The notes under the pieces are model-generated. The model saw only the letters and a program-made list of their open reading frames with translations, had not been told where the DNA came from and ran no database searches. A program made the translations under genes and the position numbers. A stretch of 64,000 nucleotides of DNA from Streptomyces sp. TG1A-60 (GTDB taxonomy: Bacteria; Actinomycetota; Actinomycetes; Streptomycetales; Streptomycetaceae): the NCBI RefSeq assembly GCF_037201975.1, contig NZ_CP147520.1, positions 744,001 through 808,000 of the forward strand, given 5' to 3'. This document shows positions 15,490 to 56,500 of the stretch, piece after piece; positions within the stretch are counted from its first letter, which is position 1; each line of letters begins with the position of its first letter.

Positions 15490-15525
15490 CTCTCTGCGAT
15501 ACTTCATTTCGAACGGAGCGTTTCC

Positions 15526-36363: not shown

Positions 36364-36410
36364 GACTGCCCTCCCCCCTTGGCTGCCGATCTCGCGCGAG
36401 CACCGATGGG

Positions 36411-36782: not shown

Positions 36783-36800
36783 GGAGCGCCATCTCCAGTC

Positions 36801-36851: not shown

Positions 36852-36857
36852 CACGGG

Positions 36858-38187: not shown

Positions 38188-39759
38188 TCAGGATGCGGGC
38201 TGCTCCGCGGGCGCGACAGGGCTCTCGGCGGACTCTCCGGCCGGCTCCTCGGCCGCGCCCGTGGGCGGGCTCTTGATGACGACCGCCACGAGCACGGCCG
38301 TCCCGAGTGCGATCAGCGCGCCGATGACACCGATGACGTTCATGCCCTCGGTGAACGCGGCCCGGCCAGAGTCGACGAACGCGGCGGCCACGTCCGAGGA
38401 CAGGCCCTTCGCCGCCTCCAGCGCTCCGGCGAGCGTGTCGCCGGCACCGCCCTGGACCTGGGCGGGAACGTCCACCTCACTGCGGTACACGGCGGTGCCG
38501 ACGCTGCCGAGGATCGCCACGCCGAGCGCCATGCCCAGCTCGGTGCTGGTCTCCGAGATGGCCGCGGCGGATCCGGCCTGCTCGGGCGGCGCCGATCCGA
38601 CCACGATGTCGGTGCCCAGCGCGATGAGCGGGCCGCCACCGGCGTACACGAAGGCGAAGCCGGTCACGACCTGCGCGATCCCGGACGTGCTGTCCGCGAG
38701 GGCCAGCATGACGTGGCCCAGCGCCGATACGGCCAGACCGACCGCGACGACGTACGCGGGCCGCACCTTGCTCGCGGCGATCGGGGACACGACGGCCGTC
38801 ACGATCAGCGCGAAGGCCGCGGGGAGCAGGTACAGACCGGCCTTCAACGGCGACAGCCCGCCGACGAGTTGCAGGTACTGCGTCACGAACAGGTACGTGC
38901 CGCCCGCGACCAGCATGCTCAGCAGCAGCGTCACCAGGGACGTACGGAACGCGGGGTTGCGGAACAGGCGGAAGTCCAGCAGCGGGCTCTCCAGGCCGCG
39001 CTGCCGACGGACGAACACGACGCCCACGAGCAGGCCCGCGACGAGGGCCAGCAGCGGGAGCGCGGACACCCCGTCGTTGGCGATCTCCTTCAGGCCGTAG
39101 ATCACCGACAGGATCGTCGCCAGGGACAGGGCCACGCTGACCAGATCGACCCGGCCGGCCTGCTCGTCGCGGTACTCCGGCAGCAGCATCGGACCGGCCA
39201 CCAGCAGCAGCGCCATGATGGGCACCCCGAGCAGGAAGACCGAACCCCACCAGAAGTACTCCAGCATCGCCCCGCCGACCACCGGGCCGAGCGCGATACC
39301 CACGGAGAACATGGTGACCCAGACGGCGATGGCCACCCCGCGCTGCCGGGCGTCACGGAACATGTTGGTGAGCAGTGCCAGGGTGGACGGCATCAGGGTG
39401 GCACCGGCGACGCCGAGCGCCGCGCGCGCCGCGATCAGCGCGGCAGGGCCGTTGGCGTAGGCGGCGGCCACCGAGGCCACGCCGAAGGCGGCGGCGCCGA
39501 TCAGCAGCAGCTTCCGGCGGCCGATGCGGTCGCCCAGCGAGCCCATGGTCACCAGGAAGCCGGCGATCAGAAAGCCGTAGATGTCGATGATCCACAACAT
39601 CTGGGAGCCCGAGGGGTTCAGGCCCTCACTGATGTGCGGGACCGCCAGGTGCAGCACGCTCACGTCGATCGACAGCAGCAGCGTGGGAAGCGCCAGCACG
39701 GCCAGGCCCAGCCACTGCCGTGGCCCGGCCTGGTGGGGGGTATCGGTGATGGTGCTCAA
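38188..39759 (-). CDS. DHA2-family MFS exporter (EmrB/QacA type, 14 segments)
   Basis: A 523-residue proton-driven drug exporter. TLLLSIDVSVLHLAVPHI is the first segment with the conserved Asp, LVTMGSLGDRIGRRKLLLIG is motif A, and later segments extend to about residue 490. The TTG at 39759 is the start: AAGGAGAC precedes it, and it overlaps the TGA of the thioesterase gene as TTGA, so it is part of the PKS operon. A Pro/Glu-rich tail follows the last helix. It probably exports the polyketide and provides resistance. Confidence 0.92.
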   Translation of the reverse strand: MSTITDTPHQAGPRQWLGLAVLALPTLLLSIDVSVLHLAVPHISEGLNPSGSQMLWIIDIYGFLIAGFLVTMGSLGDRIGRRKLLLIGAAAFGVASVAAAYANGPAALIAARAALGVAGATLMPSTLALLTNMFRDARQRGVAIAVWVTMFSVGIALGPVVGGAMLEYFWWGSVFLLGVPIMALLLVAGPMLLPEYRDEQAGRVDLVSVALSLATILSVIYGLKEIANDGVSALPLLALVAGLLVGVVFVRRQRGLESPLLDFRLFRNPAFRTSLVTLLLSMLVAGGTYLFVTQYLQLVGGLSPLKAGLYLLPAAFALIVTAVVSPIAASKVRPAYVVAVGLAVSALGHVMLALADSTSGIAQVVTGFAFVYAGGGPLIALGTDIVVGSAPPEQAGSAAAISETSTELGMALGVAILGSVGTAVYRSEVDVPAQVQGGAGDTLAGALEAAKGLSSDVAAAFVDSGRAAFTEGMNVIGVIGALIALGTAVLVAVVIKSPPTGAAEEPAGESAESPVAPAEQPAS

Positions 39760-40604
39760 CTTGTCTCCTTCAGAGGGTACTTCGAACCGCCGCCCGGAAC
39801 GGATGCCGGGTGGCCGGACGCACGAGGGACATGGCCCTCGTACGGGAGGCCCGCGTGCGGTGGGCCGGGGCGGCCGGCCACCAGGCGGTGGACGACGACC
39901 GCAGCGTGCGCGGGCTCGTAGAGGTAGAAATGGCCGCCGGTGAACATCCGCCGGCTGAAGCCGCCGGTCGTCTCCAGAGACCACAGGTGCAGCCGTTCGG
40001 CGACGACGACGGGGTCGTCGACCGCTCCGAGCGCGAGGATGGGCACGCCGGTGCCCGACAGCGGCCGCTCATAGCGCTCCATCGCCTCCAGGTCCGCGCG
40101 GATGGCGCGCAGCGACGGCCGGACCAGCTCGGTCCGGTTCATCAGCTGGGGCGTCATGCCGCCGATGTCGAGCAGGTGCTCCAGCAGCTCGGCGTCGCTC
40201 CGGAGGTGGGCGAAGGGCGGCTCGCTGGGGAAGCACGGGGGCTGACGCGCCGAGACGGCGAGCAGCCCCGGCGCGAAGCCCTTCTGCTCCATCGCGCGGG
40301 TCAGTTCGTACGCCAGCACGCTGCCAAAGCTGTGCCCGATGACCGTGTACGGCAGCTCGGGCAGGTCCGCGAGACCCCGGCTGAGCGCGTCGACGAGGGG
40401 TTCGACGCGGGTCAGCGGCGGCTCGTTGATACGGGCACCCCGGCCCGGCAACTGAGCGACGACCAGTTCGACGTCCTCGGGCAGGACCTGCCACCAGGAA
40501 CGGAACGCGGAGGGCCACCCGCCGGCGTGTGGAAAGGCCACCACGCGGAACCGGGGCGCCGGGCGGGAGCCGACGGTCATCCACCAGTCACGCATCGGTC
40601 GCAC
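39756..40604 (-). CDS. Type II thioesterase
   Basis: An alpha/beta-hydrolase of up to 282 residues that clears aberrant acyl groups from carrier proteins. FPHAGGWPSAFRSW is the oxyanion region, VIGHSFGSVLAYEL has the nucleophile Ser, ALGAVDDPVV the Asp and FTGGHFYLYEP the His. Starts at 40604 (GTG), 40595 and 40580 are all possible; the first two overlap the preceding deacetylase gene. The C-terminal 35 residues after the last helix are Pro/Gly-rich. It is coupled to the exporter gene downstream. No thioesterase domain is seen on the PKS itself, so release is not by this enzyme. Confidence 0.93.
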   Translation of the reverse strand: MRPMRDWWMTVGSRPAPRFRVVAFPHAGGWPSAFRSWWQVLPEDVELVVAQLPGRGARINEPPLTRVEPLVDALSRGLADLPELPYTVIGHSFGSVLAYELTRAMEQKGFAPGLLAVSARQPPCFPSEPPFAHLRSDAELLEHLLDIGGMTPQLMNRTELVRPSLRAIRADLEAMERYERPLSGTGVPILALGAVDDPVVVAERLHLWSLETTGGFSRRMFTGGHFYLYEPAHAAVVVHRLVAGRPGPPHAGLPYEGHVPRASGHPASVPGGGSKYPLKETS

Positions 40605-41736
40605 CCCGCCCCGGATCTGCGGTGGTCAGGTGACGGGCCAGTAGCGGGTGATGAGCCCGAAGGTGCTCGATCACCCGGCTCTGGTGGCGTTGCAGGCGCT
40701 GGCCCGGCAGGTGGTCCAACGAGTGCAGGAAAGGGTCCTGCGGCGCGGGCAGGCCGGCGATCGCGCTCGCCGTGCCCAGCACGCACATCGGCTGGTACCA
40801 CGCCGAGTAGCCGCCCTCGTGGACCAGGACGATCCGGCCCCCGGTCAGTTCGTCGGCGAGGTCGCACATCGCGGACGTCATGGCGTGGAACGTCCGGCTG
40901 GTGCACATCATCCGGCCCATCGGGTCGTGACCGCTCGCGTCGACGCCCGCCGCGACCAGGATCAGATCAGGGCCGAACGCCCGGGCCGCGGGTTCCACGA
41001 CGCGGCTGACGACGGCGAGGTAGGCGTCGTGTCCCGTGCCCGGAGGCAGCGGGACATTGAGCGTGCTGCCCGTGCCGGCACCCACCCCTGTCTCCATGAC
41101 GAGGCCGGACGCCGCCGGGAACAGCCCGTCCTGGTGGATCGACACGTACAGCACGCCGGGGTCGTCGTAGAACACCCGCTGGATGCCGTTGCCGTGGTGC
41201 ACGTCCCAGTCCAGGATCATCACCCGGCGCACCCCACGGCGTTGCGCGGCCCGCGCGGCGACGGCGACGTTGTTGTAGAGGCAAAGAGCCATCGCCCGAT
41301 CGGGTTCCGCGTGGTGGCCGGGCGGGCGGACCAGGCAGTACGCGCGCCGGAACCTCCCGTCCAGGACCTGCTCGGTGGCCTGCACCGAGGCGCCCACGGC
41401 GAGTCTCGCGGCCTGTGCGCTGTGGTAGTTCACCTGCGCGTACACACCGGCGTCACCCCCGCCGGACGCCGACACCGCCTCGACGCGCTCGATGTGCTCC
41501 GGCACATGCACCAGCAGCAGGTCCTCGTCCGAGACCGGCGTCGGCGTGACACAGGTGTACCGGTCCATCACGCCGGACGCCTTGACCAGCCCTTCGGCCC
41601 GGCGCAGATCGGGGTCGACCGCGAACTGGCGGAGCGGTTCGACACCCGGCCCCACCGGCACGTACCCCGATCCGGGCCCGGGGTCGTGCCAGAAGCACAT
41701 CTCGTGGCTGTACCACGCGAGGTCGGACGTGTTCAC
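40588..41736 (-). CDS. Class II histone-deacetylase-like amidohydrolase
   Basis: The product is 382 residues with the full zinc deacetylase signature: YCLVRPPGHHAEPDRAM (catalytic His pair), ILDWDVHHGNGIQRVFY (zinc Asp and His) and VAAGVDASGHDPMGRM (third zinc Asp). LVHEGGYSAWY near the end includes the transition-state Tyr region. The family removes acetyl groups from lysine, polyamines or small molecules. The GTG start overlaps the upstream stop as GTGA. Inside a PKS operon it most likely deacylates a biosynthetic intermediate or protected product, or is a resistant target; acting on chromatin proteins is less likely in a bacterium. Confidence 0.92.
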   Translation of the reverse strand: MNTSDLAWYSHEMCFWHDPGPGSGYVPVGPGVEPLRQFAVDPDLRRAEGLVKASGVMDRYTCVTPTPVSDEDLLLVHVPEHIERVEAVSASGGGDAGVYAQVNYHSAQAARLAVGASVQATEQVLDGRFRRAYCLVRPPGHHAEPDRAMALCLYNNVAVAARAAQRRGVRRVMILDWDVHHGNGIQRVFYDDPGVLYVSIHQDGLFPAASGLVMETGVGAGTGSTLNVPLPPGTGHDAYLAVVSRVVEPAARAFGPDLILVAAGVDASGHDPMGRMMCTSRTFHAMTSAMCDLADELTGGRIVLVHEGGYSAWYQPMCVLGTASAIAGLPAPQDPFLHSLDHLPGQRLQRHQSRVIEHLRAHHPLLARHLTTADPGRGATDA

Positions 41737-42041
41737 CAGGCGGACACACCCAACGAGGCCCGGCTGACGCCGGAGACCTTCTCGATGTACTGGAGGTAGT
41801 ACTCCCGCTCCTCGTCCGGGGTGCGCTTGGCGCGGAAGGTGGTCTCCAGCAGGTCCAGCACCTCACCGGTCTGGCCGGAGGTGAGCTGCCTCTCTCCGAT
41901 CTCCTCCTCGACGGCGCGGATGCGCGCGGCCGGCTCCACCACTCCCTTGGTGTGCTCGTCCCGGTCGGTGCCGTGGTTGCGGGTCGAGGCGATGGTCTTC
42001 AGTACCGCCGAGAAGAATGCCGTCTTGTCGATGTCCGTCAT
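41733..42041 (-). CDS. Unrecognised 102-residue protein of the PKS operon
   Basis: It starts MTDIDKTAFFSAVLKTIAST and ends VSRASLGVSAW. It is highly charged, mostly helical, with no Cys, membrane segment or carrier-protein Ser motif; a DEREYYLQYIEK stretch lies near the end. GGGGGAACGG precedes the ATG. It is translationally coupled to the deacetylase gene and lies 35 bp after the PKS. I do not recognise the family. It may be a docking or accessory protein for the synthase. Confidence 0.75.
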   Translation of the reverse strand: MTDIDKTAFFSAVLKTIASTRNHGTDRDEHTKGVVEPAARIRAVEEEIGERQLTSGQTGEVLDLLETTFRAKRTPDEEREYYLQYIEKVSGVSRASLGVSAW

Positions 42042-42076
42042 GTCCGTTCCCCCTTGGTCGTCATGTGGTCGTGCGG

Positions 42077-45000
42077 TCAGGTGATGAGGCCGCAGGCACG
42101 GCCGGCCTTCTCCAGCGTCGCCACGGCCGTGTCCAGGTCGGCCTCGGAGTGGCTGAGGTTGACGATGGTCCGCAGCCGGGGCAGCGTCCGTGGCACCGCC
42201 GGATAGACGATCGGCTGGACGAACAGTCCGTCGAGCTGGCACGCGCGGGCCATGGCACCCGCCTGCTCGGCGCTGCGGCAGATGATCGGCACGACCGGCG
42301 TCTCACCGGTGAGCGTGTCGAAACCCAGCGCTCGCAGCTGCTCCCGGTAGCGGGCGGTCCTGGCCCGCAGTTCCCCGGGCAGTCCCGGCGCGGCGTCGAT
42401 CACCTCGATCGCCGCCCTGGCCGCCGCCACCTGGGCCGGGGTCGCGGCCGCGGAGAACATCCAGCCGCGCGCGTTGTTCTTCAGCGCGAAGACGAGGTCG
42501 CTCGATCCGGCGACGTAACCGCCCGCGCTGGGCACGGTCTTGGACAGCGTGCCCATCTTCACGTCGACGCGGGCCGGGTCGATGCCGAAGTGCTCGGTGA
42601 TGCCGCGCCCGGTGCGGCCGAGTACGCCGAGGCTGTGCGCCTCGTCCACCATGAGCGGGGCGTCGTACCGCTCGCACAGCTCGACGATGCCCGGCAGGTC
42701 GGCCACGTCGCCGTCCATGCTGAAGACGGCGTCGGTGACCACCAGTCTGCCCGCGTCCCCCGCCTTCTTCAGCGCGCGCTCGAGATCGGCGAGGTCGTTG
42801 TGCGCGTATGTGATGACCTTGGCGCCCGAGAGCCGGTAGCCGTCGAGAATGCTGGCGTGGTTGTAGACGTCACCGATGATGACGTCGCCGGAGCCGACCA
42901 GCGCGCCCACGGTCGCCACGTTCGTCATGTAGCCGCTGGAGAAGACGACGGCGTCCTCCGCGCCCAGGAACCGGGCGAGCGCGAGTTCCAGTTCACGGTG
43001 CAGGTGGAGGGTGCCCGCGAGGAGCCGCACACCGTGGGCTCCGGTCCCGTGCCGCTCCACGGCACGCAGCGCCTGCTGCTCGATGTAGTCGTGCCCGATG
43101 AGTCCGAGGTAGCTGTAGGAGGCGAAGTTGAGGAACCAGCGGCCGTCGAACTTGATGTGGGCGCCCCGGGCCTCCTCGATGACGGGCTCGTAGAAGTACT
43201 CGTCCTTGGCTACGACGACACGGTCCTCCACGGAGAGGGCGTCGATGCGCCGCTCCAGGAAGGTGCCGTCCGGCCTGCCGGAGAGACGGCCGGGGAGGGA
43301 GCGTCGGGGAGTGCGGGTGGTGGGGCGGGGCGCCTCGGTGGTCGGGGCCGCTGCCGGGGCCGTCAGAGACGTCGCCGCCACGGGCGTCGGGGCCTGCGCG
43401 GGATGCGGGGTGTGTGTGGCCGCCGGGAGCGGGCGGGCCGGGGCCGGGCCGTCCTCGCGGCGGGCGGGTGCCGGGTCGCGGAAACGGTCCCAGTCGGGGA
43501 CGAAGGAGTCGGCCGTGCTCCGGTGCGCGGCGGCGGGCGCCGGCCGTTCCGGCTCCGGGGCCGCGGGTATGGAGGCCAGGGGCACCAGGGCCGGGGCCCC
43601 GGAGGCCCCGATCGGCGCGATGCCCACGGTCGTCGGGGGCGGGGCCGGGGCCTTGGCCGCCTCGGTCGTACGGTCCGCCGGTTCGAGGTGGCCGGCCAAC
43701 GCGCCGACCGTGCTGTGCTCGAAGAAGACCATCGGGTCGACCTCGAAGCCGTCGGCGGTCAGGGACGCGGCCAGCTCGACCGCCATCATCGAGTCGAGGC
43801 CCAGCTCCAGCAGATCGTCCTCGGGCACCACGTCGTCGACGTGCAGGACGTTCTTCAGAGCCGTGGTCAGCGACAGCCACAGCCCGCGTTCCGGTGTCAC
43901 AGCGGTCATGGGTTCTTCCTTCGCGTTGGCGTCGGCGCACAGGACGTAGTGCGCGGGAGGACGGCCGAGGACGGTGCGCAGCAGGGCGACACCGCTGTCC
44001 GCCGTGAGAACCGGCACGCCGTGGGCGGCGGCCTTCGGGGCGATGCCCTCGCCCATGCCGATGCTCCACAGCCCCCAGCCGAGGCTGAACCAGGGCTCTT
44101 TGTCGGCGCGCCTGCGGGCGGCGTAGCCGTCCAGGTAGGCGTTGGCCGTGGCGTAGGAGCTCTGCCCGAGGTTGGCGCACACGGAAGCGACGGACGAGAA
44201 GAGGGCGACGAAGTCCGGTGGGCCGCTCCCTGCGATCAGGTCGGCGATCGCGTGCACCCCGCCGACCTTGGGGCCGAGGACGTCCTCGACCTGGTCCGGC
44301 GTCAGGTTGCGGGCCAGGCCGTCCCGAAGCACTCCCGCGGCGTGGAACACGCCGTCGTAGCGTTCGGCACCGTCGAGCACCTTCGGCAGGGAACGGACAT
44401 CCGCGGCCACGGTGTGCAGGTCGCAGAGGGCACCGAGCCGGTCGAGCCGCGCCCGGGCCTCCCCCGCGTCCGGGACGGTCCGGCCCACGAGCGTCAGATG
44501 GGCACAGCCCTCGGCCGCGAGGAACTCCGCGACCCGCAGACCGATGCCGCCCATGCCTCCGGTGACGAGGAAGCGTCCGTCACGGAAGCGGGGAGGCCGC
44601 GCGCAGCCGTCGGTCGGCGGTCGCGGTGTGCGCTCGCTCGATTCCAGTGCCGGCCGGTACCAGCCGGTCGCGCGTCGGGCGAGCTCCGGCTCGGCGTGTC
44701 CGAGCACGTCCTCGAGCGCGCTCGCCGTGAGGTCGGCGCCGGCCTCCAGGTCCACCAGGCGCACGCTGGTGCGGGGGTGTTCCACGCGCAGGGTGCGGCC
44801 GAGACCCCACAGGGAGGTCATGAAGGGGTCGACGGCCTCCTCCCCCGCCACCTGGTGGGCCCCGCAGGTGACGAGCAGCAGATCCGGCATGGGCGGACGT
44901 GCCGTGAGCCGCCGTACCAGGGTGAAGACACCCTGGAGGGCTTCCCTCACCCGGTCCTCGCCCACCAGGCCGCGCGGAGCCGCGTACGCCACCGCGCCCA

Positions 45001-46000
45001 CGGGCGTGCCGTCGAGAACGTCGTCGAGGCGCTCCCGGGTCAGCTCCGCCGGCGTCAGGTGGACGACGGACCGGCCTTCCGGCGTCGGGAGCCGCTGCGG
45101 CGAGACCAGCAGCAGAGGGCCTTCGAACGCCCGTGGTGCGCGGGCCGGTTCGGCCTCCCGCCAGACGACGGTCTCGATCGAACCCGCCGCGGATCGGCCC
45201 TGCTCCTCCGCCGCCCTGGCGGGCGCTTGTACCGAGGGGGACTTGAGCGTGATGCGGTCCAGTTCGAGCAGCACCTCGCCCTGCTGGTTGCAGACGGTGG
45301 CCCTCCCCCGTACGCCACCGCCCCGGGACCCGGCCGTCGCGTCGCGCTCGACATGGGCGAGGACCGTGCCGGAGATCCGCCGACGGGCCACGAGCCGACC
45401 CACGTACCAGGGCAGGCACATCCCGGCCGCCCCGCCGTCGAGCATGCCCAGCACCTGGAAGACGCTGTCGAGCAGCGGTGGCGGCACGAACCTGGTCCCG
45501 TGCAGGTCGTCGTCCGCGCGCAGGACCACCAGCATGCGGTCCTGTCCCCGGTGCGCGGAACGGATGACCCGATAGGCGGGCCCGTACGTGATGCCGCTGG
45601 CCTGCCGCCAAGCCGCCACGTCCGTCAGCGCGACGGACTGCGCGCAGCCGGCCCGCAGTCCGGCCAGGTCGACGTAGCGGGGCGGCGGCAGAGGCACCCC
45701 ACGGGCGCGCGCCGTGCTGTGCTCGACCGGCGCGCCGCCCGCATCGGCGTCGAACGACAGGAGGGAGCACCGCCCGTCGTCGGCCGTGACCACTCGCAGG
45801 TCGACTCCGGGCCCGGTCATCCTCAGCGGTGCGCGGAAGGTGACGTTCTCCAGTGTCCACACGCGGTCTGGCCGTCGGGCGTCGCAGGCGGTCAGAACGG
45901 CGTCGATCTGGGCGGCGGCCGGGACGACGGGTGTGTCACCGATCCGGTGGTCGCGGACCAGCGGATCGGTGACGCCGAGGTGGATGCGGGCGCCGCTCAT
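42077..46000 (-). CDS. Polyketide synthase, DH-KR-ACP followed by a PLP-dependent alpha-oxoamine synthase
   Basis: A 1,307-residue protein. The DH (about 1-270) has DHRIGDTPVVPAA with the catalytic His and LLDSVFQVL with the Asp. The KR (about 290-650) has FLVTGGMGGIGLRVAEF, LRD (B-type) and SSYATANAYLD. The ACP (about 700-760) has LGLDSMMAVEL, with the pantetheine Ser. A Pro/Ala linker follows. Residues 930-1307 are an alpha-oxoamine synthase of the 8-amino-7-oxononanoate/serine palmitoyltransferase type: GSGDVIIGDVYNHAS, VDEAHSLGVLG and MGTLSKTVPSAGG with the PLP Lys. It should condense the ACP-bound chain with an amino acid and lose CO2, releasing an alpha-amino ketone. No KS or AT is present; these are at the end of the neighbouring PKS. 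The ATG overlaps the alkylation-repair gene as ATGA. Confidence 0.93.
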   Translation of the reverse strand: MSGARIHLGVTDPLVRDHRIGDTPVVPAAAQIDAVLTACDARRPDRVWTLENVTFRAPLRMTGPGVDLRVVTADDGRCSLLSFDADAGGAPVEHSTARARGVPLPPPRYVDLAGLRAGCAQSVALTDVAAWRQASGITYGPAYRVIRSAHRGQDRMLVVLRADDDLHGTRFVPPPLLDSVFQVLGMLDGGAAGMCLPWYVGRLVARRRISGTVLAHVERDATAGSRGGGVRGRATVCNQQGEVLLELDRITLKSPSVQAPARAAEEQGRSAAGSIETVVWREAEPARAPRAFEGPLLLVSPQRLPTPEGRSVVHLTPAELTRERLDDVLDGTPVGAVAYAAPRGLVGEDRVREALQGVFTLVRRLTARPPMPDLLLVTCGAHQVAGEEAVDPFMTSLWGLGRTLRVEHPRTSVRLVDLEAGADLTASALEDVLGHAEPELARRATGWYRPALESSERTPRPPTDGCARPPRFRDGRFLVTGGMGGIGLRVAEFLAAEGCAHLTLVGRTVPDAGEARARLDRLGALCDLHTVAADVRSLPKVLDGAERYDGVFHAAGVLRDGLARNLTPDQVEDVLGPKVGGVHAIADLIAGSGPPDFVALFSSVASVCANLGQSSYATANAYLDGYAARRRADKEPWFSLGWGLWSIGMGEGIAPKAAAHGVPVLTADSGVALLRTVLGRPPAHYVLCADANAKEEPMTAVTPERGLWLSLTTALKNVLHVDDVVPEDDLLELGLDSMMAVELAASLTADGFEVDPMVFFEHSTVGALAGHLEPADRTTEAAKAPAPPPTTVGIAPIGASGAPALVPLASIPAAPEPERPAPAAAHRSTADSFVPDWDRFRDPAPARREDGPAPARPLPAATHTPHPAQAPTPVAATSLTAPAAAPTTEAPRPTTRTPRRSLPGRLSGRPDGTFLERRIDALSVEDRVVVAKDEYFYEPVIEEARGAHIKFDGRWFLNFASYSYLGLIGHDYIEQQALRAVERHGTGAHGVRLLAGTLHLHRELELALARFLGAEDAVVFSSGYMTNVATVGALVGSGDVIIGDVYNHASILDGYRLSGAKVITYAHNDLADLERALKKAGDAGRLVVTDAVFSMDGDVADLPGIVELCERYDAPLMVDEAHSLGVLGRTGRGITEHFGIDPARVDVKMGTLSKTVPSAGGYVAGSSDLVFALKNNARGWMFSAAATPAQVAAARAAIEVIDAAPGLPGELRARTARYREQLRALGFDTLTGETPVVPIICRSAEQAGAMARACQLDGLFVQPIVYPAVPRTLPRLRTIVNLSHSEADLDTAVATLEKAGRACGLIT

Positions 46001-47118
46001 GTGCGGAGGTCGAACCGCTCAGTGGCCTTGACCAGGCCGTTCACCTGAATCTCGACGACGTGCTCGCCCGCGTAGTACCGGCGGGTCTGTACCTCCTTGA
46101 GGGCGTGGGTCTTGCGCACGACCCGCCGTTCGCCGGCGGCGAGTTCGAGGGTCGTCAGCTTGAAGACCTTCGGGATGCTGCGGCCGTTCCTGCGCACGTG
46201 GTGGACCACGTAGTCGACGGTGACGCTGTGCGCCCGGTCGTCGGCGTTCTCGACGGTGAAGTCGATGACGAGGCTGTCTCCGACGGCCACGACCCCAGGG
46301 GTGACGCGCAGGTCGGACACATGGGCGAGCTCGCCGCCCGTCGCCCCGAGCATGGCCAGGGCCTGCTGGTCGCCCTTCTTCACCAGGGTGCGCAAAGCGT
46401 GCTTCACGATCCAGTTGGTCTCGGGGGTGGGGCTCTCCTCCAGCCAGCGCAGCGCGGTGGCGAGCGCGATGTCGGGGGTGTCCTTGGAAATGTCGTTGAG
46501 GTTGTTGGCGACGGACTTGCGCACGTACTCGGAAGGGTCACTACGCAGTGGTTCGAGGATCTCCAGGACGGGCTGCGGGTCCTTCACGAAGACGTCGAGG
46601 GTGCGGGCCCAGGGCAGGCGCGGGCGGATTCCCTCGCTGGCGAGGCGCCGTACGTTGTGGCTCGGGCTGTGGGCCCACCGCTCCACGCGCTTCATCGTCA
46701 TCGCGTAGTGGTCCTCGACGAAGGGCCTGATGGCGTACTCGCCGGTGTGGCGCCGGGTGATTTCCTCAATGGCGTCCAGGGACACCTCGGGGTGGTTCCG
46801 GCCGTACTCCTCCACGAACCTGGCCACCGGCATGAGGAACCAGCTGGTGTTGAACATGCCCTCGCCCTCGGCGAGTTCGTCCCCGAGGATCGACACGAGC
46901 ACGGCCACGGCGGTCGGGTAGTCCTCGGGGAGCCGGGTGCGCAGTCCCTCGGTCAGGACGAGGACGCGGTCCTTCAGTTCCTTGCCGGGGATGCGCTGTT
47001 CCACTTCGGCGGCGTAGCCCTCGATGTCGAACTCGGGGTGGACGGCGCGGACCTTGCCGCCGATGAGGCGCGCGGCCTCACCGTTGAAGTGTCGCTTCAG
47101 TCCGTATTCGCTAGCCAT
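45997..47118 (-). CDS. DNA alkylation repair glycosylase, AlkC-like HEAT-repeat protein with C-terminal Ig-like domain
   Basis: A 373-residue protein. Residues 1-250 are HEAT-like repeats of the AlkC/AlkD superfamily: EFAIRPF-type YAIRPFVEDH, NVRRLASEGIRPRLPWA, EYVRKSVANNLNDISKD and ETNWIVKHALRTLVKKGD. The last 110 residues, from VSDLRVTPGVVAVGD to AGEHVVEIQVNGLV, form the Ig-like beta domain that separates AlkC from AlkD. The family removes positively charged or bulky N3/N7-alkyl purines from DNA. The gene overlaps both neighbouring PKS genes (8 bp and ATGA), so it is made with the synthase. AlkD-type YtkR2 protects the yatakemycin producer, and by analogy this is likely self-resistance to a DNA-alkylating product. 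Confidence 0.9.
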   Translation of the reverse strand: MASEYGLKRHFNGEAARLIGGKVRAVHPEFDIEGYAAEVEQRIPGKELKDRVLVLTEGLRTRLPEDYPTAVAVLVSILGDELAEGEGMFNTSWFLMPVARFVEEYGRNHPEVSLDAIEEITRRHTGEYAIRPFVEDHYAMTMKRVERWAHSPSHNVRRLASEGIRPRLPWARTLDVFVKDPQPVLEILEPLRSDPSEYVRKSVANNLNDISKDTPDIALATALRWLEESPTPETNWIVKHALRTLVKKGDQQALAMLGATGGELAHVSDLRVTPGVVAVGDSLVIDFTVENADDRAHSVTVDYVVHHVRRNGRSIPKVFKLTTLELAAGERRVVRKTHALKEVQTRRYYAGEHVVEIQVNGLVKATERFDLRT

Positions 47119-50100
47119 GGTGCTCGGGCCTCTTCGTCTCGTGCGGATGAGTGCTGTCGGTGGTCGTGGGGTCGGGGCCCGAGGCCTCGGGCGCGCCGGG
47201 GGTGATCCAGAACCGGCGGCGCCTGAAGGGGTAGCCGGGGAGGGTGGTGACGCTCTGGCGTTTGCCGTGGTGGAGCCCGGTCCAGTTCAGGTCCGTGCCG
47301 GTGTGGTTGTGGTGGGCCGTCAACGCGGCGTGGAACTGTGGCTGGTCCTCGCGGCCCCGCTGGAGCGTGGTGATCCACGCGGGGTCGAGATCGGGGCGCG
47401 CCTCGGTGAGCGTTGCGCGGGCGAGCGGGATCAGCTGCGGATGCGGACCGATCTCCCAGACGGTGTGGGGGCCGGTCTCGGCCAGCGTGGTGACGGCCTG
47501 GCTGAACCGGACGGCGCGGCGGATCGCCTGGGCCCAGTGCCCGGGATCGGTGGCGGTGACGTCGCTGTGCCAGGTGCCGGTGAGAGTGCTGGCGAAGGGG
47601 ATCTCGGGCGGCGCGAGCGGGGTGGCGGCGACGGCGTCCGCGAAGGGGGCGAGGGCCGCTTCCATCACCGCGGAGTGGAAGGCGTGGCTGACCGTCAGGG
47701 GCCGCACGCGGAAGGAGCTCTGCTCGCGGAACCGGGCCAGCATTCCTTCCGGGCCGCTGATGGTGTGGACGCGCGGCGCGTTGTGGGCGGCGATCTCGAT
47801 GCCGGGATACGCCTCCAGCTCGGCCGTGAGCGAATGGATGTCGGTGTGGACCACGGCCATCGTGCCGTTGGCGGGCCGGGCCTGCATCAGCTCGCCGCGG
47901 AGCACGGTCAGCCGCAGCAGGTCGGGCAGGGTGAGCACGCCGGCCGCCCAGGCTGCGGTCAGCTCGCCCAGGCTGTGCCCGGCGACGACGTCGGGCCGTA
48001 CCCCGGCCGCCCGCAGGGACGCGACCAGAGCGACCTGGACGCTGACGATGCCGATCTGCGCGTACCGGGTCTGGTCCAGCAGGTGCCGGGCGTCGCCGTA
48101 CAGCAGGTCCAGCAGGGGCACGTCGGTCCAGTGGGTGAGCAGATCGGCGCATTCGTGGAGCGTGTCGCGGAAGTGCGGCTCGGTCGCCTTCAGGCCCTGG
48201 CCCATGCCCGCGTACTGCGAGCCCTGTCCGGTGAAGAGGAAGGCGGTGGTCGTCGCCGTTCGGATGTGCCGGGTCGGTGAGGTGGCTCCGGAGGCGACCT
48301 CCGTCAGCCGGGCGGCCAGTTCGGCGGCGGTGGTGCCGTGCACGGCGGTGCGGTAGCGGTGGGCGGCTCGCGCGGTGTTGGCGGTACGTGCGAAGTCGCC
48401 GAGCCGGTCCTCGTCGGTGCCGGTCAGGTGGGCGGCGTAGGCACTGGCCAGGTCGCGCAGGGTGGTCTCGTCCGCCGCGCTGACCCGCACGATGTGGCTG
48501 TCCTGGGGCAGAGGGGTGTCCTGCGGCGCCGTCGGTGGTTCCTCGACGATGACGTGAGCGTTGACACCGCCCATGCCGAACGCGCTGATCGCGGCCCGCC
48601 GCGGATGCCCCCCACGCGGCCAGGGCCGCGCACGGTCAGCCAGATAGAACGGAGTCTCCTCGAAACGGATGTGGTCATTGGGACGCGTCACATGCAGCGT
48701 CGGCGGAATCACCCCATGCTCCATCGCCAACAGCGCCTTCACCAGCCCCGCCAGACCCGCCGCCGGCTCCAGATGACCGATGTTCGACTTCAACGACCCG
48801 ATCGCACAGAACTGCGCACGACCGGTATGCCCCCGCCACGCCCGAGTCAGCCCGTCGATCTCGATCGGATCCCCCAGACTCGTCCCCGTACCATGCGCCT
48901 CCAACAACCCGATCGTCTCCGGCTCAACCCCCGCATCCCGCAAAGCCTCGGCGATCACGTCCCCTTGTGCGCGAGCGCTCGGGGCGGAGTAACGGGTGGT
49001 ACGGCCACCGTGGTTAACGGCCGCGCCCTTGACGAGCCCCCGGATCCGGTCGCCGTCCCGTCGGGCGTCGTCGTGGCGTCGCAGGACTACTGCGACCGCG
49101 CCCTCTCCGGGGACGAAGCCGTCGGCGGTGCTGTCGAAGGCACGGCAGCGGTGCCTCGGTGACAGGGCCATCAGATCGCCCATCGAGCGGAAGTACTCGG
49201 GGCTGATGGCGGCGTGCACGGCGCCGATCACCGCCGTGTCGATGTCTCCGGCGCGCAGGTGCTGCAGAGCCGTGTGCACCGCCACCAGCGAGGACGAGCA
49301 GAGGGTGTTGACGAGTCCGCTCGGGCCGTGCCAGTCCATCAGGTAGGACAGCCGGTTCGCGATCATCGCCTCCAGGCCCAGGCCCCGGCCGTCGGATACG
49401 CCGTGGCGGGCGCGCTCCTCGTGGTAGTGGTCGTGGCTGTAGCCGATCCACAGACCGGTCCGGCTGCCCTCGGCCCGCTCGCCGGCCCGTCCCCCGTCCT
49501 CCAGGGCCTCCCAGATCGTTTCGTACACGATCCTCGCCTGAGGGTCGATCAGGGGCGCTTCCCGGGGTGAGATCCGGAACGGGCCCGGGTCGAACTCGTC
49601 CACGGCCTCCAGGAACGAGGCGTACGGGGCGGGCCCGTGCGGCGGCTGACTCCAGCGGCTGTCGGGCAGCGGGCGTACGGTGTCCCGCCCTTGGCGCAGA
49701 AGGTCGGCGAAGTCGGTCAGGGTGTGTGCGGTGGGGAGGCGGACCGCCGCGCCGACGACGGCGATGTCGCGGGAGCGGATGGTCTCGGGCGTCGGCACGG
49801 ACGGGGTGGGCACGGCCCGGGCCGCGGCCGTCGTGGTGGGTGGGCGAGGGGCCGGGGTCGAGTCCGCGGGTGCTCCGGGTGCGGTGGGCGCCTCGTCAAC
49901 CGCTGTCGGCTCGGCGGGCGTTGACGTCTCGTCGGCCGGGCGGGGCGAAGGGATCAGCGTGGCGGCCAGCTCCGGGGCCTCGGTCAGGACGAAGTCGGCG
50001 AACTGGCGGGGCGTCGGGTACTCGAAGAAGACCGTCGGGTAGAGGGACAGCCCGAACTCCTGGGAGATCCGCTCGCTCAGCGACACGAGGCCGACCGAGT

Positions 50101-53100
50101 CGAACCCGGCGGACAGGAACTCCGTGTCGGCGTCGTCCGCGGAGGTGCCCGTCAGCTCCAGGAACCAGGCGAGCACCCGCCCGGGTGTCGGCGGTTGGTC
50201 GCAGCGCGTCGCGGGGGCGGGGCGGGTGGAAGGCACCGAGGCGGTGTCGCGGGGCCCGGCCGCGGCCGTAGGGCCGGCAGTGGTCTCCGTCGTACCGGCG
50301 GTCGCCGCCGCGGCCGTGTCGCCGGCCCTGGCCGCTGTCGTACCGTCGGTCCCCGTTGCCGCACCGGCGGTCGCCGGCGCGGTCGTAGCGCCGAGTCCCG
50401 CCGCAGTCGTACGGCCGGGTGCCGCAGCCGCCGTACCCGGGGGCGCCCCCGTCCGGTCCAGCGGCAGCGTCGCCGCGGCGGGCTGCGCCGGCGCCCCCTC
50501 CCCGCTGAACGCCTCCAGCGGCACCCGCTTGGACGACATGTCGCCGAAGACCAGCAACGGCCGGCCCTCCGCGTCGGTCACCGTCTGCGTGACGCGGCAG
50601 GCCTCCTCGTTCCAGAAGGCGATCTCCGTGCGGACGTAGGCCGCGTCGTCCAGCGGGCCGTGGACGTCCGCCCTGGCCGCCGAGAGCGGTATGAACGCGG
50701 ACGCGTCGGCGGCGCCGAAGACCGGGTTGTCCGGGGCGATCGCGGCGATGGTGACGCTGTCGAGGAGCCCTGGGAACAGCTGGGTACCGGGCGCGTTCAT
50801 CTCCCGCTGGCGCCGCCCCTCGATGCGGGCGAGCGTGCCGCCGTCCGGGAGGCCCGCCACCCACGAGATGTTCCGGTAGTAGCGGCCGTGGTGGTAGCCG
50901 ATCCGCCGCAGCCACCGGTAGAGACCCGAGCCGGCGTGCACCTGTGCGCAGGAACCGAGCAGCGAGGCGACCGGTACGGGGACCGGCTCGGCGGCCGGCT
51001 CGCGCAGCAGTCGACCGGTGACGAAGGGGCCCCCGTTCCGGTCGTCCTCCACCGTGAACTGCCCCCGCGCATCGACGCGGCACACCACGCGGCACGCGCC
51101 GGAGGGGATCAGCGGGCGGTGGAACAGCAGGTCCCGTACTCCGTGGAAGGGTTCGCCGCGCAACGCGGCACCCTCGCGCAGGAACTCGAACCACGCCACA
51201 CCCGGCAGCATGATCCTGCGGTACACGGCATGTTGGGCGAGGGGCACCTCGCCCGGCCCGAAGACCCGCGCGAAGACGTATCCGGCGGCTCCCCCGTCCC
51301 GCACGAGCTCCGCGGGCGCACCGGGTTCGGGCGAGCGCAGGGGCTCGCGCAGGTCCAGGGCCCGGCCGCGCGGCTGGGACGATGGCAGCAGGCGCTTGCG
51401 CCACGCCGTGTCCCGTTGGTACGCGTTCCAGTCGATGTCCTGGCCCGCACGGAAGAGGTCGGTGGTGACCGCGGCGAGCTCCGCGGTCACCTCCCGGCCG
51501 TCGTGTGCCCCAACCAGACGTGCGCACAGCTCGCCCTCGGCAGTGGGCTCGTGCGCGGGCCCGGGGAGCGGGTCGCCATCGTGACGGAGGACGTCGGCCA
51601 GCGCCTCCTCGAGCGGTACACGGCCCCAGGCGAAGTCCCGGACCGCCTCCCACCCCGGGGGCAGGTCCACCGCGCTTTCCGGCAGTCCCGCGTCGCGCAG
51701 CGCCACTGTGAGGGCGATTCCCTCGCTGATGCGCAGCAGTTCGCCGGAGAAATCGGCCAGGCGCGCACCGGTCGCCGTCTCGAAGAGACCGATGATCTCG
51801 TGCACGGGAGGCACCGAGCGATCGAGGGCGACGAGCCAGGCGGGGGGTGTTCCGTCCGCCTCGGGACGGACCCGTACGGTGGGTTCCCCGGGCGCGGCGG
51901 AGTCAGGAGCGTCGTACCGGAGAAGCCATGTGCGAAGGGCGGACGTCAGCTCCCTCGCGTCGGCCCCGCTTACGGCCACCCGCTCGGAGCGGTGCGGACG
52001 CGCCAGTCGCGCGGTGGCGCACACGTCGTCGAGGTCGTCGGCCACGGTGGGCAGGAACTCAATCCACTGCGCGACCAGTTCCCGCAGCGCGTACGGGGTG
52101 TCGGCCGACAGGGGCAGGATGTGGACCGCGCGGGACGGCCCGTCGGCGCGGCCCCGCCCGTGCGGAGCCGGGGGTACGGCTTCGGCGACGACGTGCGCGT
52201 TCGTCCCGCCGAAGCCGAAACCGCTCACCGCGGCCCGCCGCACGGGCACTTCGGGCCACTGGCTGTGCGTGGCGGGGAGGCGGAAGGGGCTGTCGGCCAG
52301 GTCGAGGCGGGGATTGGGCTCCTCGACGGTGAGTGCCGGGACGATGCCGTCGCGCAGCATGACGATCACCTTGGCCAGGCCCGCCAGGCCCGACGCCGAG
52401 TGCAGATGGCCGATGCGGCGCTTGAGGGAGCCGAGCGCCACGGAGTTGCGGGGGACGCCGAGCCGGCCGAACACCTCGGTGAGCGCCCGCGCTTCGATCG
52501 GGTCGCCGATGGCGGTACCGGTGCCGTGGGCCTCGACGTACTGGACGGTCGCCGGGTCGATCCGCTCGTACACCTTGCCCAGCAGTTCGATCTGGGCGTC
52601 CAGGTTCGGCGAGGTGACGCCCATCGTGCGGCCGTCGTTGTTGACCTCGGTCGCGGCGATGGCTCCGAGGACCAGGTCGCCGTCGGCCAGTGCCGTCCCC
52701 ATCGGCTTCAGGACGAGGGCGACGGCTCCCTCACCGGGCACGTAGCCGTTGGCCCTGCGGTCGAAGGTCCGGCACAGGCCGTCCGGGGACAGGGCTCCGG
52801 TGCGGGAGAGCAGGACGAACGTCAGGGGGTCGATCAGCAGGTCGACCGCGCCGACGACGGCCAGCTCGCAGGCCCCCGCCGTCAGGCTCTGGCAAGCCAG
52901 CCAGACGGCCGACAGGGCGGACGAGCACGCGGTGTCGACGACAAGGCTCGGGCCCGCCAGGTCGAACCGGTCGGACAGCCAGGCCGCCATGAAGTTCTGC
53001 GACCGTCCCCAGAGGGAGGCGGCCCGAGGCCCGCCGCCAAGGCCGGTTGCCTGGGCGCCGGCCGGGCCCTGTGTGCCGTCGGCGCCCAGGCCCCGCCCGT

Positions 53101-53521
53101 GGTCGAATCCGTACGCGTTCATGCGGGCCCCGACGAACACGCCCGCGTCGAGCCGCCGACGCGCCCTCAGGTAACCGGAGTCCTCCAGGGCCCGGGCACC
53201 GACCTCGAGCATCACGCGCTGCTGCGGGTCGAGGAGGACGGCGTCCTCGGCGGTCAGGCCGAACGCCTCGTGGTCGAAGGAGAACGGGTCCAGCAGGAAG
53301 GCACCCCGGTGATGCGTGCCCTGGTGGGCGCTGTCCCCGAGGTACAGCTTGCGGTCCCAGCGGCTCGGCGGGACCTCGTCGACCTCGATCCCGTCGTGCC
53401 TCAGCTGGGTTCCGAAGTCCATGACGTCCTCGGCCCCCGGGAGCCGCACCGCCATGCCGATCACGGCGATGCGGCTGTCGAGCTCGCTCACAGCAGTCCT
53501 CTCGTTCGGCTCCGTCGTCAT
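47111..53521 (-). CDS. Modular PKS: KS-(no AT)-DH-like-ACP, KS-AT
   Basis: The product is about 2,136 residues. KS1 (about 15-445) has VVDTACSSALSAVWLA, EAHGTGT and RRIGHLHSASG: the Cys-His-His triad is intact. No AT follows. A DH-like domain (about 760-1000) has LAQHAVYRRIMLPGVAW, where the Gly of HxxxGxxxxP is Arg, and FPGLLDSVTI, so it may isomerise or be inactive. An Ala/Thr-rich linker, then an ACP near 1140 (SAGFDSVGLVSL). KS2 (about 1250-1660) has VNTLCSSSLVAVHTAL. The AT (about 1760-2080) has FLFTGQGSQYAGMG, AGHSLGELTAAW and VSHAFHSAVM; HAFH indicates malonyl-CoA. The protein ends after the AT, leaving its module to be completed by the next PKS. The ATG at 53521 lies 4 bp past the previous stop; a GTG 21 bp upstream is also possible. 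Confidence 0.92.
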   Translation of the reverse strand: MTTEPNERTAVSELDSRIAVIGMAVRLPGAEDVMDFGTQLRHDGIEVDEVPPSRWDRKLYLGDSAHQGTHHRGAFLLDPFSFDHEAFGLTAEDAVLLDPQQRVMLEVGARALEDSGYLRARRRLDAGVFVGARMNAYGFDHGRGLGADGTQGPAGAQATGLGGGPRAASLWGRSQNFMAAWLSDRFDLAGPSLVVDTACSSALSAVWLACQSLTAGACELAVVGAVDLLIDPLTFVLLSRTGALSPDGLCRTFDRRANGYVPGEGAVALVLKPMGTALADGDLVLGAIAATEVNNDGRTMGVTSPNLDAQIELLGKVYERIDPATVQYVEAHGTGTAIGDPIEARALTEVFGRLGVPRNSVALGSLKRRIGHLHSASGLAGLAKVIVMLRDGIVPALTVEEPNPRLDLADSPFRLPATHSQWPEVPVRRAAVSGFGFGGTNAHVVAEAVPPAPHGRGRADGPSRAVHILPLSADTPYALRELVAQWIEFLPTVADDLDDVCATARLARPHRSERVAVSGADARELTSALRTWLLRYDAPDSAAPGEPTVRVRPEADGTPPAWLVALDRSVPPVHEIIGLFETATGARLADFSGELLRISEGIALTVALRDAGLPESAVDLPPGWEAVRDFAWGRVPLEEALADVLRHDGDPLPGPAHEPTAEGELCARLVGAHDGREVTAELAAVTTDLFRAGQDIDWNAYQRDTAWRKRLLPSSQPRGRALDLREPLRSPEPGAPAELVRDGGAAGYVFARVFGPGEVPLAQHAVYRRIMLPGVAWFEFLREGAALRGEPFHGVRDLLFHRPLIPSGACRVVCRVDARGQFTVEDDRNGGPFVTGRLLREPAAEPVPVPVASLLGSCAQVHAGSGLYRWLRRIGYHHGRYYRNISWVAGLPDGGTLARIEGRRQREMNAPGTQLFPGLLDSVTIAAIAPDNPVFGAADASAFIPLSAARADVHGPLDDAAYVRTEIAFWNEEACRVTQTVTDAEGRPLLVFGDMSSKRVPLEAFSGEGAPAQPAAATLPLDRTGAPPGTAAAAPGRTTAAGLGATTAPATAGAATGTDGTTAARAGDTAAAATAGTTETTAGPTAAAGPRDTASVPSTRPAPATRCDQPPTPGRVLAWFLELTGTSADDADTEFLSAGFDSVGLVSLSERISQEFGLSLYPTVFFEYPTPRQFADFVLTEAPELAATLIPSPRPADETSTPAEPTAVDEAPTAPGAPADSTPAPRPPTTTAAARAVPTPSVPTPETIRSRDIAVVGAAVRLPTAHTLTDFADLLRQGRDTVRPLPDSRWSQPPHGPAPYASFLEAVDEFDPGPFRISPREAPLIDPQARIVYETIWEALEDGGRAGERAEGSRTGLWIGYSHDHYHEERARHGVSDGRGLGLEAMIANRLSYLMDWHGPSGLVNTLCSSSLVAVHTALQHLRAGDIDTAVIGAVHAAISPEYFRSMGDLMALSPRHRCRAFDSTADGFVPGEGAVAVVLRRHDDARRDGDRIRGLVKGAAVNHGGRTTRYSAPSARAQGDVIAEALRDAGVEPETIGLLEAHGTGTSLGDPIEIDGLTRAWRGHTGRAQFCAIGSLKSNIGHLEPAAGLAGLVKALLAMEHGVIPPTLHVTRPNDHIRFEETPFYLADRARPWPRGGHPRRAAISAFGMGGVNAHVIVEEPPTAPQDTPLPQDSHIVRVSAADETTLRDLASAYAAHLTGTDEDRLGDFARTANTARAAHRYRTAVHGTTAAELAARLTEVASGATSPTRHIRTATTTAFLFTGQGSQYAGMGQGLKATEPHFRDTLHECADLLTHWTDVPLLDLLYGDARHLLDQTRYAQIGIVSVQVALVASLRAAGVRPDVVAGHSLGELTAAWAAGVLTLPDLLRLTVLRGELMQARPANGTMAVVHTDIHSLTAELEAYPGIEIAAHNAPRVHTISGPEGMLARFREQSSFRVRPLTVSHAFHSAVMEAALAPFADAVAATPLAPPEIPFASTLTGTWHSDVTATDPGHWAQAIRRAVRFSQAVTTLAETGPHTVWEIGPHPQLIPLARATLTEARPDLDPAWITTLQRGREDQPQFHAALTAHHNHTGTDLNWTGLHHGKRQSVTTLPGYPFRRRRFWITPGAPEASGPDPTTTDSTHPHETKRPEHHG
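48524..48982. repeat. 459-bp perfect direct repeat, copy 1 (KS2 of the 2,136-residue PKS)
   Basis: Identical base for base to 55815-56273, same orientation, 7,291 bp apart. It covers the C-terminal half of a KS from SARAQGDVIAEA to VNAHVIVEEPPTAP. Flanking DNA is homologous but clearly diverged, so the edges are sharp. Codons in the block (many CAT, GGT, CGT, TTG) differ from the surrounding usage. Confidence 0.98.
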
Positions 53522-53525
53522 GGCG

Positions 53526-56500
53526 TCACCGGTCCCGGTCACGGGTGAGCAGCGGATGCAGCAGGGCGCTCAGGGCCGAGACGCGCTGGTCGTCAAAGGC
53601 CACGGAGCGAATCGGGGACGCCTCCTTGGCGGGGGCCGCGGACCGGCTCGCAGTGGTCGCGGCGAGACCGGTCGCGATGTCGTCGGCCGTACCGGCCCGC
53701 ATCAGCATGGACGGATCGACGGTGAGGCCTCCGCGTTGTTCCAGGGCGGTGGTCAGCTCGGCGATGACCAGGGAGTCCAGTCCCAGTGCCTGGAGCGGGC
53801 GGTCACCGGGGTCCTCGCCCAGCACCTGCACAAAGGCGTCCCGCACATGACCGCGCATCACCTCGTGGTCCCGTTCGCCGGTCGGCGGTACGGGAATCAC
53901 GGTACGGATCTCCGTGGCCCCGCCGTGCGTCCCGGACCGCGCCGCGCCCCGTGCCGGCGCGGCGGGAGCTTCAGGCCCCGCGGGCGTGGGAGCGGTGCCG
54001 GGGAAGACGACCGCGCCGCCCGACCGTATGTGGTCGAGGAACGCGTCCGCCGCCTCGTCGGTGCCGATGGAGTGCGCGGCGGAGTAGGACGCGTCCGCCT
54101 CCATGCCGGTGCCCGTCCAGTTGGGCCACGCGTGCGCGGTGACCGTGGTGGCGGTGCCGTTCTCGGCCTCGGCCAGCGCCAGTTGGTAGGCGTTGGCCAG
54201 GCTGTAGTCGACCAGGCCCCGGCCGGCCCCGGCCCGCGTGCCCGCGATCGAGGACACCAGGACCGCGAAGTCGGCCCCCCGCTCCTGAGCCAGGCGCACG
54301 GCGTTCAGCGAGCCGGGGATCTTCGGGGCGACCACCTTCGCGGCGTCGCTCCAGGGCCTGCGGTGCATCGCGCCGAACGGGTTGACCCCGCCGGAACAGT
54401 GCACGACACCCAGCAGGCGGCCCCAGCGCGCCCCTAACTCCCGCGCCACGGCGGCCAGAGTTGACGCGTCGGAGACATCACAGGGCAGGTACTTCACCTC
54501 GGCCCGCCTCGCCAGCTCCCGCAGCTGTACGGGGTGGGCCTCGTCGATCACGGACCGCCCGACCACGCCGATGCGACGCGCTCCCCGGTCGACGAGCCGC
54601 CGGACCAGATGCCGTCCGACCGCGCCGAGTCCGCCGGTCACCAGGTAGTACCCGTCTCCGGACGGCTCGTAGGACGGACCGGGCGGGGCGGCGACCGTCT
54701 TCGGCACGTACCTGATGCCGTGGCGGTAGGCCGCGAAGGTGCCGGTGAGCGGGTCCGTGCCCGGTCCGGCGTCGGGGCCGTGGAGCAGGGCCGCGTATTC
54801 GGCGGCGATCTGCCGGGCGCGGACGTCGGCCGGGTCCGCCGGGTCCAGGTCGAGGACGGCGGAGTGCTTCCGGCTCTCCGCACAGGCCGCACGTACGGCC
54901 ATGGCCATGGCGGCGGCCTCCGGACGAAGCCGTCGGCGTTCCGACGCGTGCACGGCCGCGCCGTGGTGTCCCGCCCAGAGCAGCTGCCCGTGTACGGGCA
55001 ACGTCTTGACCAGGGCACCGAGTTCGGACCAGAACGCCCTCAGGTCGTACGGCTCGGCGTCCCGTCGGCTCGGGGTGTTCACCACGACGACCGTGTCCGC
55101 GCTCGGCCCGGTCTCCTTGACGACCGCGCCCCGGTCGCGGAGTGCGGCCGTGAGCGCGTCCCGCAGGGCGGGGTCCGTGGTGACGAGGCGCACCGAGCCA
55201 TGCCGCAACGAAGGGACGGGAAGCGGGAGTTCGGCGGCGCGCCACTCGACGCGGAGGGCTTCGGGGCGGCGCCCGGCGGTTGCCGTCGTGCCTCCGGCCG
55301 TGGCGGCGGTTCCGGCTGCGGCTGCGGCTGCTTCAGGGACGGTCGATGCCGCGGCCTCGTGCCTGTGCCAGTGCTTCTGTGCGGCGAACGGGTAGGTCGG
55401 CAGGTCCGTGACGCGTGCTCCGGGCGCGGAGAGCGCCGCCCAGTCGACGTGCGCGTATCCGGCTCTCACCATGGCGGCGACGGCCGTGTGGCGGTGCGGT
55501 TCCCCGTCCGGAACGATGTCCCCCAGGGCCTGTTCGGCCGTCAAGCCGCTGTCGACACGGGCGATCGGCACACTGCCGGCTGCGAGGGCACGCAGCGCCG
55601 TCGCGAGCTCGGCGGCGTCATGCCCGCTCACAGCCGTCTGGAATTCCAGGGGCGAGCGGCCGACATTGGCCGTGTGGCAGAGGTCTGCTGTCTCCCAGTC
55701 CTCGCGTGCCGGGTCGAAGCGGTCGGCGTAGGCGGTGGCGAGGGCGCGCACGGCGGCCTCGTCGGCACCGGTCACCCGGACCAGATGGCCGTCCTGGACC
55801 GCCCCCGCGCGGGCCGGCGCCGTCGGTGGTTCCTCGACGATGACGTGAGCGTTGACACCGCCCATGCCGAACGCGCTGATCGCGGCCCGCCGCGGATGCC
55901 CCCCACGCGGCCAGGGCCGCGCACGGTCAGCCAGATAGAACGGAGTCTCCTCGAAACGGATGTGGTCATTGGGACGCGTCACATGCAGCGTCGGCGGAAT
56001 CACCCCATGCTCCATCGCCAACAGCGCCTTCACCAGCCCCGCCAGACCCGCCGCCGGCTCCAGATGACCGATGTTCGACTTCAACGACCCGATCGCACAG
56101 AACTGCGCACGACCGGTATGCCCCCGCCACGCCCGAGTCAGCCCGTCGATCTCGATCGGATCCCCCAGACTCGTCCCCGTACCATGCGCCTCCAACAACC
56201 CGATCGTCTCCGGCTCAACCCCCGCATCCCGCAAAGCCTCGGCGATCACGTCCCCTTGTGCGCGAGCGCTCGGCACCGTCAGCCCGCTGGTGCGGCCCCC
56301 GTGGTTGACCGCGCTCCCCCGGATCACACCGCGCACCCGGTCCCCGTCACGCAGCGCCGCCGCCAACGGCTTCACCACCACCGACACCACACCCTCACCC
56401 GGCACGAATCCGTCCGCCGCGGAGTCAAAAGCACGCGACGCGCCCGAAGGTGACAGGGCCCGAAGGTTCCTCATGGCCACGTAGTGCAACGGCGACAGGG

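Follow-up and report, generated by a model that had tools for sequence, protein, structure and literature searches.

An AlkC-family DNA glycosylase gene inside a formylglycine-started, AOS-terminated PKS operon of Streptomyces: a candidate for producer self-resistance

In a stretch of 64,000 nucleotides from Streptomyces sp. TG1A-60 (hereafter the window), a gene of the AlkC family of DNA glycosylases lies inside a PKS operon that ends in an alpha-oxoamine synthase (AOS) release domain. Its linkage to this operon across genomes supports well the conclusion that it is a dedicated, cluster-bound AlkC. We propose, with a probability of about 60%, that the enzyme is dedicated to protecting its producer against a polyketide that starts from formylglycine and is terminated by the AOS. 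Self-resistance genes hint at what a hidden molecule does, and from the resistance gene by itself we infer that the product of this cluster alkylates DNA. The original reading of the gene is supported in part.

The AlkC gene and its place in the PKS operon

The AlkC reading frame (Table 1) starts with ATG and contains no internal stops. The protein matches the Pfam family DNA_alkylation (PF08713; 27.6 bits, cut-off 21), and with phmmer its residues 6-372 align with the whole of Pseudomonas fluorescens AlkC (PfAlkC; E of 2.6e-67 to 5vi0/5vhv), so that the C-terminal Ig-like part is included in the similarity. An AlphaFold model puts beta strands at residues 265-372 after a helical repeat, suggesting a HEAT-like fold with an Ig-like tail. 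These results bear out the original prediction of an intact HEAT-repeat AlkC with an Ig-like tail. Glu127 and Glu162 align with Glu121 and Glu156 of PfAlkC, which are named as the catalytic residues in the accessible part of a review. The pair was invariant in all 30 AlkC sequences aligned, and so were Arg158 and Asp209. The full-length similarity, the predicted HEAT-like-repeat fold with its Ig-like domain and the catalytic pair place the protein in the AlkC family, whose activity is the excision of 3-methyladenine, 3-methylcytosine and 1-methyladenine; it is not of the AlkD type, as it scores far higher as AlkC than as AlkD in both sequence and fold comparison and has the Ig-like tail. The genome of the window strain holds one AlkC, which is the cluster copy. 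A filter for cluster-specific residues (23 cluster sequences against 19 core and 12 outer sequences) returned 21 differing positions, including Tyr128 (Phe in PfAlkC), which adjoins Glu127; because Tyr128 is also common to close orphan copies and multiple testing was left uncorrected, no argument here rests on these positions.

The gene overlaps its PKS neighbours at both ends, by 8 nt with PKS C and by an ATGA with PKS D. Because PKS C, upstream, ends in KS-AT and PKS D, downstream, begins with DH-KR-ACP, AlkC divides one module. The double overlap and the parted module had both been read from the window beforehand, and both stand. The PKS A/B junction (62585-62588) likewise splits a module at AT/DH with no gene in between, which indicates that splitting modules is a habit of this PKS. 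PKS A runs 6.4 kb past the window end. Several modules of PKS B and PKS C have no AT (KS-DH-ACP, KS-KR-ACP) and stand alongside cis-AT modules.

Table 1. Positions of the AlkC gene, the PKS genes and the accessory genes in the window
Feature	Position	Strand	Remarks
TetR-family regulator	35109..35699	+	cluster edge
ORF, 218 aa, without Pfam match	35758..36414	-	6/11 cluster loci; some loci end early
Second VOC protein	36411..36854	-	
4'-Phosphopantetheinyl transferase	36858..37619	-	4/11 cluster loci
VOC / glyoxalase-bleomycin-resistance fold protein	37732..38166	+	weak match to mitomycin-binding protein
MFS drug exporter, QepA/LfrA-like	38188..39984	-	under the cut-offs of those models; start codon uncertain
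Free-standing thioesterase	39756..40604	-	
Class II histone-deacetylase-type (HDAC) amidohydrolase	40588..41736	-	
ORF, 169 aa, without Pfam match	41733..42242	-	matched in 11/11 cluster loci
PKS D	42077..46000	-	DH-KR-ACP-AOS
AlkC/PKS D overlap (stop/start)	45997..46000	-	4 nt, ATGA
AlkC-type DNA glycosylase (predicted activity)	45997..47118	-	373 aa; HEAT-like repeats and Ig-like C-terminal domain
PKS C/AlkC overlap (stop/start)	47111..47118	-	8 nt
PKS C	47111..53542	-	KS-DH-ACP-KS-AT; single AT found
PKS B	53526..62588	-	DH-KR-ACP-KS-DH-ACP-KS-KR-ACP; AT not found
PKS A, 3' part (AT)	62585..64000	-	gene extends past window to L002:8369; A-PCP-KS-DH-ACP-KS-AT

Linkage of AlkC to the AOS cluster

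In GTDB genome contigs 20 AlkC relatives were found, of which 12, all actinomycete loci, are 71-91% identical and the remaining 8 do not exceed 44%. In 11 of these actinomycete loci AlkC is flanked by the AT of PKS C and the DH of PKS D, and the AOS is visible in 8 of those 11, i.e. where the contig DNA reaches far enough. In the twelfth locus, from Micromonospora andamanensis, there is no PKS around AlkC and no such AOS in the genome. An AlkC match was present in 48 plasmid records, one of them cluster-type (81.5%) and the remaining 47 below 60%. Because these first loci had been found through AlkC, the AOS was also searched for alone. Among 392 Streptomyces genomes it was present in 14 (E<=1e-120), all of which fall among the 15 genomes with a close AlkC, and in 13 of the 14 the two genes share one contig and strand and lie a few kb apart. 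In G139 they are on separate contigs, with the AlkC piece still flanked by PKS C and PKS D; in G375, whose assembly is 55% complete, AlkC is in three pieces. A search of 394 genomes from the class found the AOS in G000, G638 and G597, the last two newly found and both with AlkC beside it; G597 belongs to another genus and family, and its AlkC is 68% identical. PKS-linked relatives of the gene, sought by genome search, were thus found: all 16 AOS carriers, from two genera and two families, have the cluster AlkC (adjoining the AOS in 15, on a different contig in 1). Since the operon can be transferred as a unit, these 16 genomes do not amount to 16 independent events.

The arrangement is conserved to the level of the gene junctions, with AlkC overlapping both PKS genes in 26/26 cluster loci (about 22 distinct at 1.5% in AlkC; in L010 and L037 the end of the contig DNA cuts the upstream frame short). 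The upstream overlap is 8 nt in 20 loci, 11 nt in 3 and 22 nt in 3, and the downstream one is ATGA in 25 loci and GTGA in 1. AlkC is under purifying selection, with dN/dS of 0.13-0.31 over 11 pairs. When 13 cluster pieces were compared over the 11 loci with long flanks, only the AOS (76-95% identity) and the HDAC-type protein (74-92%) were better conserved than AlkC (68-91%). The HDAC-type, thioesterase and MFS genes were present in 11/11 loci and the first VOC gene in 10, some loci ending early.

The cluster type may extend further. Among 120 listed AlkC protein clusters (the best 120 of 7922 matches) and 120 listed AOS protein clusters (the best 120 of 164), 26 of the AlkC clusters match an AOS cluster by exact longest-contig size, against 0.2 on average at shifted sizes; up to two or three of these 26 pairs are not true neighbours (P0052 lies as a further, distant copy on the same contig as P0008, and P0085 and P0099 share one AOS size). 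Among the matches listed, AlkC identity in the size-matched clusters falls as low as about 52%. Two names occur in one list each: Acanthopleuribacter among the AOS matches, with a similar AOS (60%), and Pragia fontium among the AlkC matches, with a similar AlkC (54%). S. albidoflavus apparently also carries this cluster type (protein clusters P0020 and P0136).

An AlkC match at E<=1e-30 was found in 50/392 Streptomyces genomes, 35 of which have only distant copies of 45% identity or less. The non-cluster copies in Streptomyces are all at or below 45%, save an orphan in G386 (76%) that stands alone, and the 20-kb stretches around nine distant AlkCs (31-44%; eight from Streptomyces, one from another family) gave no PKS match in 9/9. 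In a quick tree, in which most rows have no assigned genomic context, 22 of 23 cluster rows fall in one starred group of 46, which also holds the orphan L038 and 23 rows without assigned context. The cluster copy of G597, from genus g34, is on another branch, and the core copies of g34 form a starred clade of their own. A careful tree of 46 rows, which omits the long-branch rows O_L086, O_L016, O_L017 and O_L083, separates the whole cluster subfamily from other AlkCs with support of 99/99, although the bootstrap had not settled. On this tree the linked or free state needs 4 changes versus a shuffled mean of 12.1 (0/500 as low), 18 of the 31 'linked' rows being labelled by matching contig size alone. 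The original prediction would have been refuted by a grouping with housekeeping AlkC next to unrelated genes in most Streptomyces; the trees instead part the subfamily from the distant copies, and the linkage is 16/16.

Orphan members, and core copies in g34, show that the link between subfamily and product does not hold everywhere. Close relatives without a surrounding cluster are L015, L038 and L093 (a second copy in G638), and in three g34 loci (L098, L099, L100) an AlkC at 57-62% sits, without the cluster, in a shared, core-looking neighbourhood, adjoining succinate dehydrogenase and carboxylase genes as judged by eye. Cluster-subfamily genes standing without the cluster lie at L101:9057-10178 (the L038 copy, which the quick tree places within the cluster copies), L015:9998-11152 and L095:9825-10937. 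Such orphans could possibly represent acquired immunity in non-producers. The cluster copy is the sole AlkC at E<=1e-30 in 14 of the 16 cluster genomes (G266 and G638 have another), and it may therefore also serve general repair.

Starter unit and accessory genes

The A domain of PKS A carries the residues DILQLGLIWK (positions mapped by eye), which we take to be a glycine code. Ahead of this domain are a formyltransferase domain, a Rieske oxygenase and a flavin oxidoreductase. In Streptomyces sp. NBC_00158 the formyltransferase and A-PKS are fused in one protein of 3120 aa. In the window strain the formyltransferase/A-domain starter gene (L002:7806-9867, beyond the window end) is split over three reading frames, perhaps through a sequencing error, perhaps through a genuine lesion, and the window strain may therefore not make the product. 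The formyltransferase and the glycine A domain also led us to consider an oxazole starter as in oxazolomycin-type clusters; no cyclodehydratase gene was found in the subset of proteins scanned. The HDAC-type amidohydrolase could strip the N-formyl or another acyl group, and drug-binding resistance is a possible role for the two VOC-fold proteins.

The literature on AOS PKSs, strain J1074, N-formylglycine starters and oxazole or trans-AT clusters gave no match to the cluster product. The nearest description is that of an AOS-type PKS of Streptomyces albus J1074 (UniProt D6B3S9), given in the available text as KR-CP-PLP(AOS) with a predicted Gly-Mal-Mal. This agrees with PKS D and the glycine A domain of the present cluster; the likeness is one of description, and identity is a lead. 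According to the accessible part of a 2014 survey, PKS-NRPS clusters 1 and 3 of S. albus J1074 had no assigned product.

Proposed function and alternative explanations

That DNA-alkylating products are co-encoded with glycosylases, as had been argued for this gene from YtkR2 (AlkD-type) and AlkZ (azinomycin), is confirmed by the literature as far as its accessible text goes, which describes cluster-borne self-resistance glycosylases of the AlkD/YtkR2 and AlkZ kinds (PMC8626424, PMC8934636, PMC9040887, PMC9570651). The precedents in these texts are YtkR2, C10R5, AlkZ, HedH4, TxnU2/U4 and LldU1/U5. YtkR2 and C10R5 (yatakemycin, CC-1065) resemble the present case in that a HEAT-like-repeat glycosylase lies in the cluster of a DNA-alkylating product. 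AlkZ, HedH4, TxnU2/U4 and LldU1/U5 (azinomycin, hedamycin, trioxacarcin, LL-D49194) are likewise cluster-borne self-resistance glycosylases, and HedH4 sits between two PKS genes just as the window AlkC does; these proteins, however, are of the HTH_42 family, unrelated to the HEAT-like-repeat AlkC. In the literature outside subscription papers we found no cluster-borne AlkC-type glycosylase. The alkylpurine DNA glycosylases AlkC of P. fluorescens and Bacillus cereus are not described as cluster-borne in the accessible texts, unlike the window AlkC, which overlaps PKS genes on both sides. The same texts describe AlkC as acting on small methyl adducts, and B. cereus AlkC failed to remove hedamycin or trioxacarcin adducts.

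In the proposed mechanism, the PKS would make a molecule that, as such or in an activated form, alkylates ring nitrogens of DNA bases. The lesion would thus stem from the cluster's own product and be excised by AlkC, whose production would be kept in step with that of the flanking PKS proteins by translational coupling through the overlapping genes. AlkC would open the damaged helix without base flipping, and Glu127 and Glu162 would serve to cleave the glycosidic bond to the charged alkyl base by hydrolysis, leaving an abasic site for ordinary base-excision repair. The MFS pump and the VOC proteins would hold the free product low. Points that count against this reading are the preference of AlkC for small lesions, the failure of the B. 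cereus enzyme on hedamycin and trioxacarcin adducts, the orphan copies and the apparently damaged starter gene of the window strain.

It is also conceivable, though we consider it unlikely, that AlkC guards against a reactive intermediate or by-product, such as alpha-aminoketones or alpha-oxoaldehydes at the AOS step, and that the final product hits another target. The AOS yields alpha-aminoketones, the cluster encodes two glyoxalase-fold VOC proteins, and the conserved linkage fits this explanation equally well. The VOC proteins, however, are as similar to drug-binding members as to glyoxalases (3vcx; the weak match to the mitomycin-binding protein), and the accessible texts do not list alpha-oxoaldehyde adducts among the substrates of AlkC. 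Much less probable is that the protein acts without glycosylase chemistry, as a scaffold for the divided module or as a product-binding protein. HEAT-like repeats are a common scaffold form and AlkC lies between the two module halves, but a module is split likewise at the A/B junction, where AlkC is absent, orphan copies persist without a PKS, and a pure scaffold would not need the invariant Glu127, Glu162, Arg158 and Asp209. That an ordinary repair gene drifted into the operon and hitchhikes there is the least probable of all: although it is the sole AlkC of the window genome and has relatives outside clusters, for example in the g34 core neighbourhood, genome searches, gene context and trees, with 16/16 linkage, both overlaps in 26/26 loci and a separate subfamily, led us to judge a housekeeping or hitchhiking origin unlikely.

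Returning to self-resistance by a dedicated glycosylase, we extend it tentatively, at a little under even odds, to the subfamily as a whole. The subfamily would be the self-resistance glycosylase of one widespread class of DNA-alkylating polyketides with an N-formylglycine start and an AOS end. It would then be the third family, after AlkD/YtkR2 and AlkZ, to have been enlisted for protecting a producer, and in some non-producers the gene without the cluster would confer acquired immunity. Its range would comprise Streptomyces, Nonomuraea and genus g34 and probably reach farther, given linked sequences down to about 52% identity. If the window AlkC does protect against the product of its own cluster, a cluster type found in Streptomyces, Nonomuraea, another genus and apparently S. 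albidoflavus makes a genotoxin, AlkC joins AlkD and AlkZ as the third glycosylase family for producer immunity, and AlkC, so far tied to small methyl lesions, gains a possible natural bulky substrate.

Elsewhere in the window, a small EF-hand calcium-binding protein is encoded at 8482-9015 and an McrBC-component gene (PF10117) lies at 12973-14724. The next ORF in the same frame after the latter, at 14749-16350, contains a short-chain dehydrogenase joined to other sequence.
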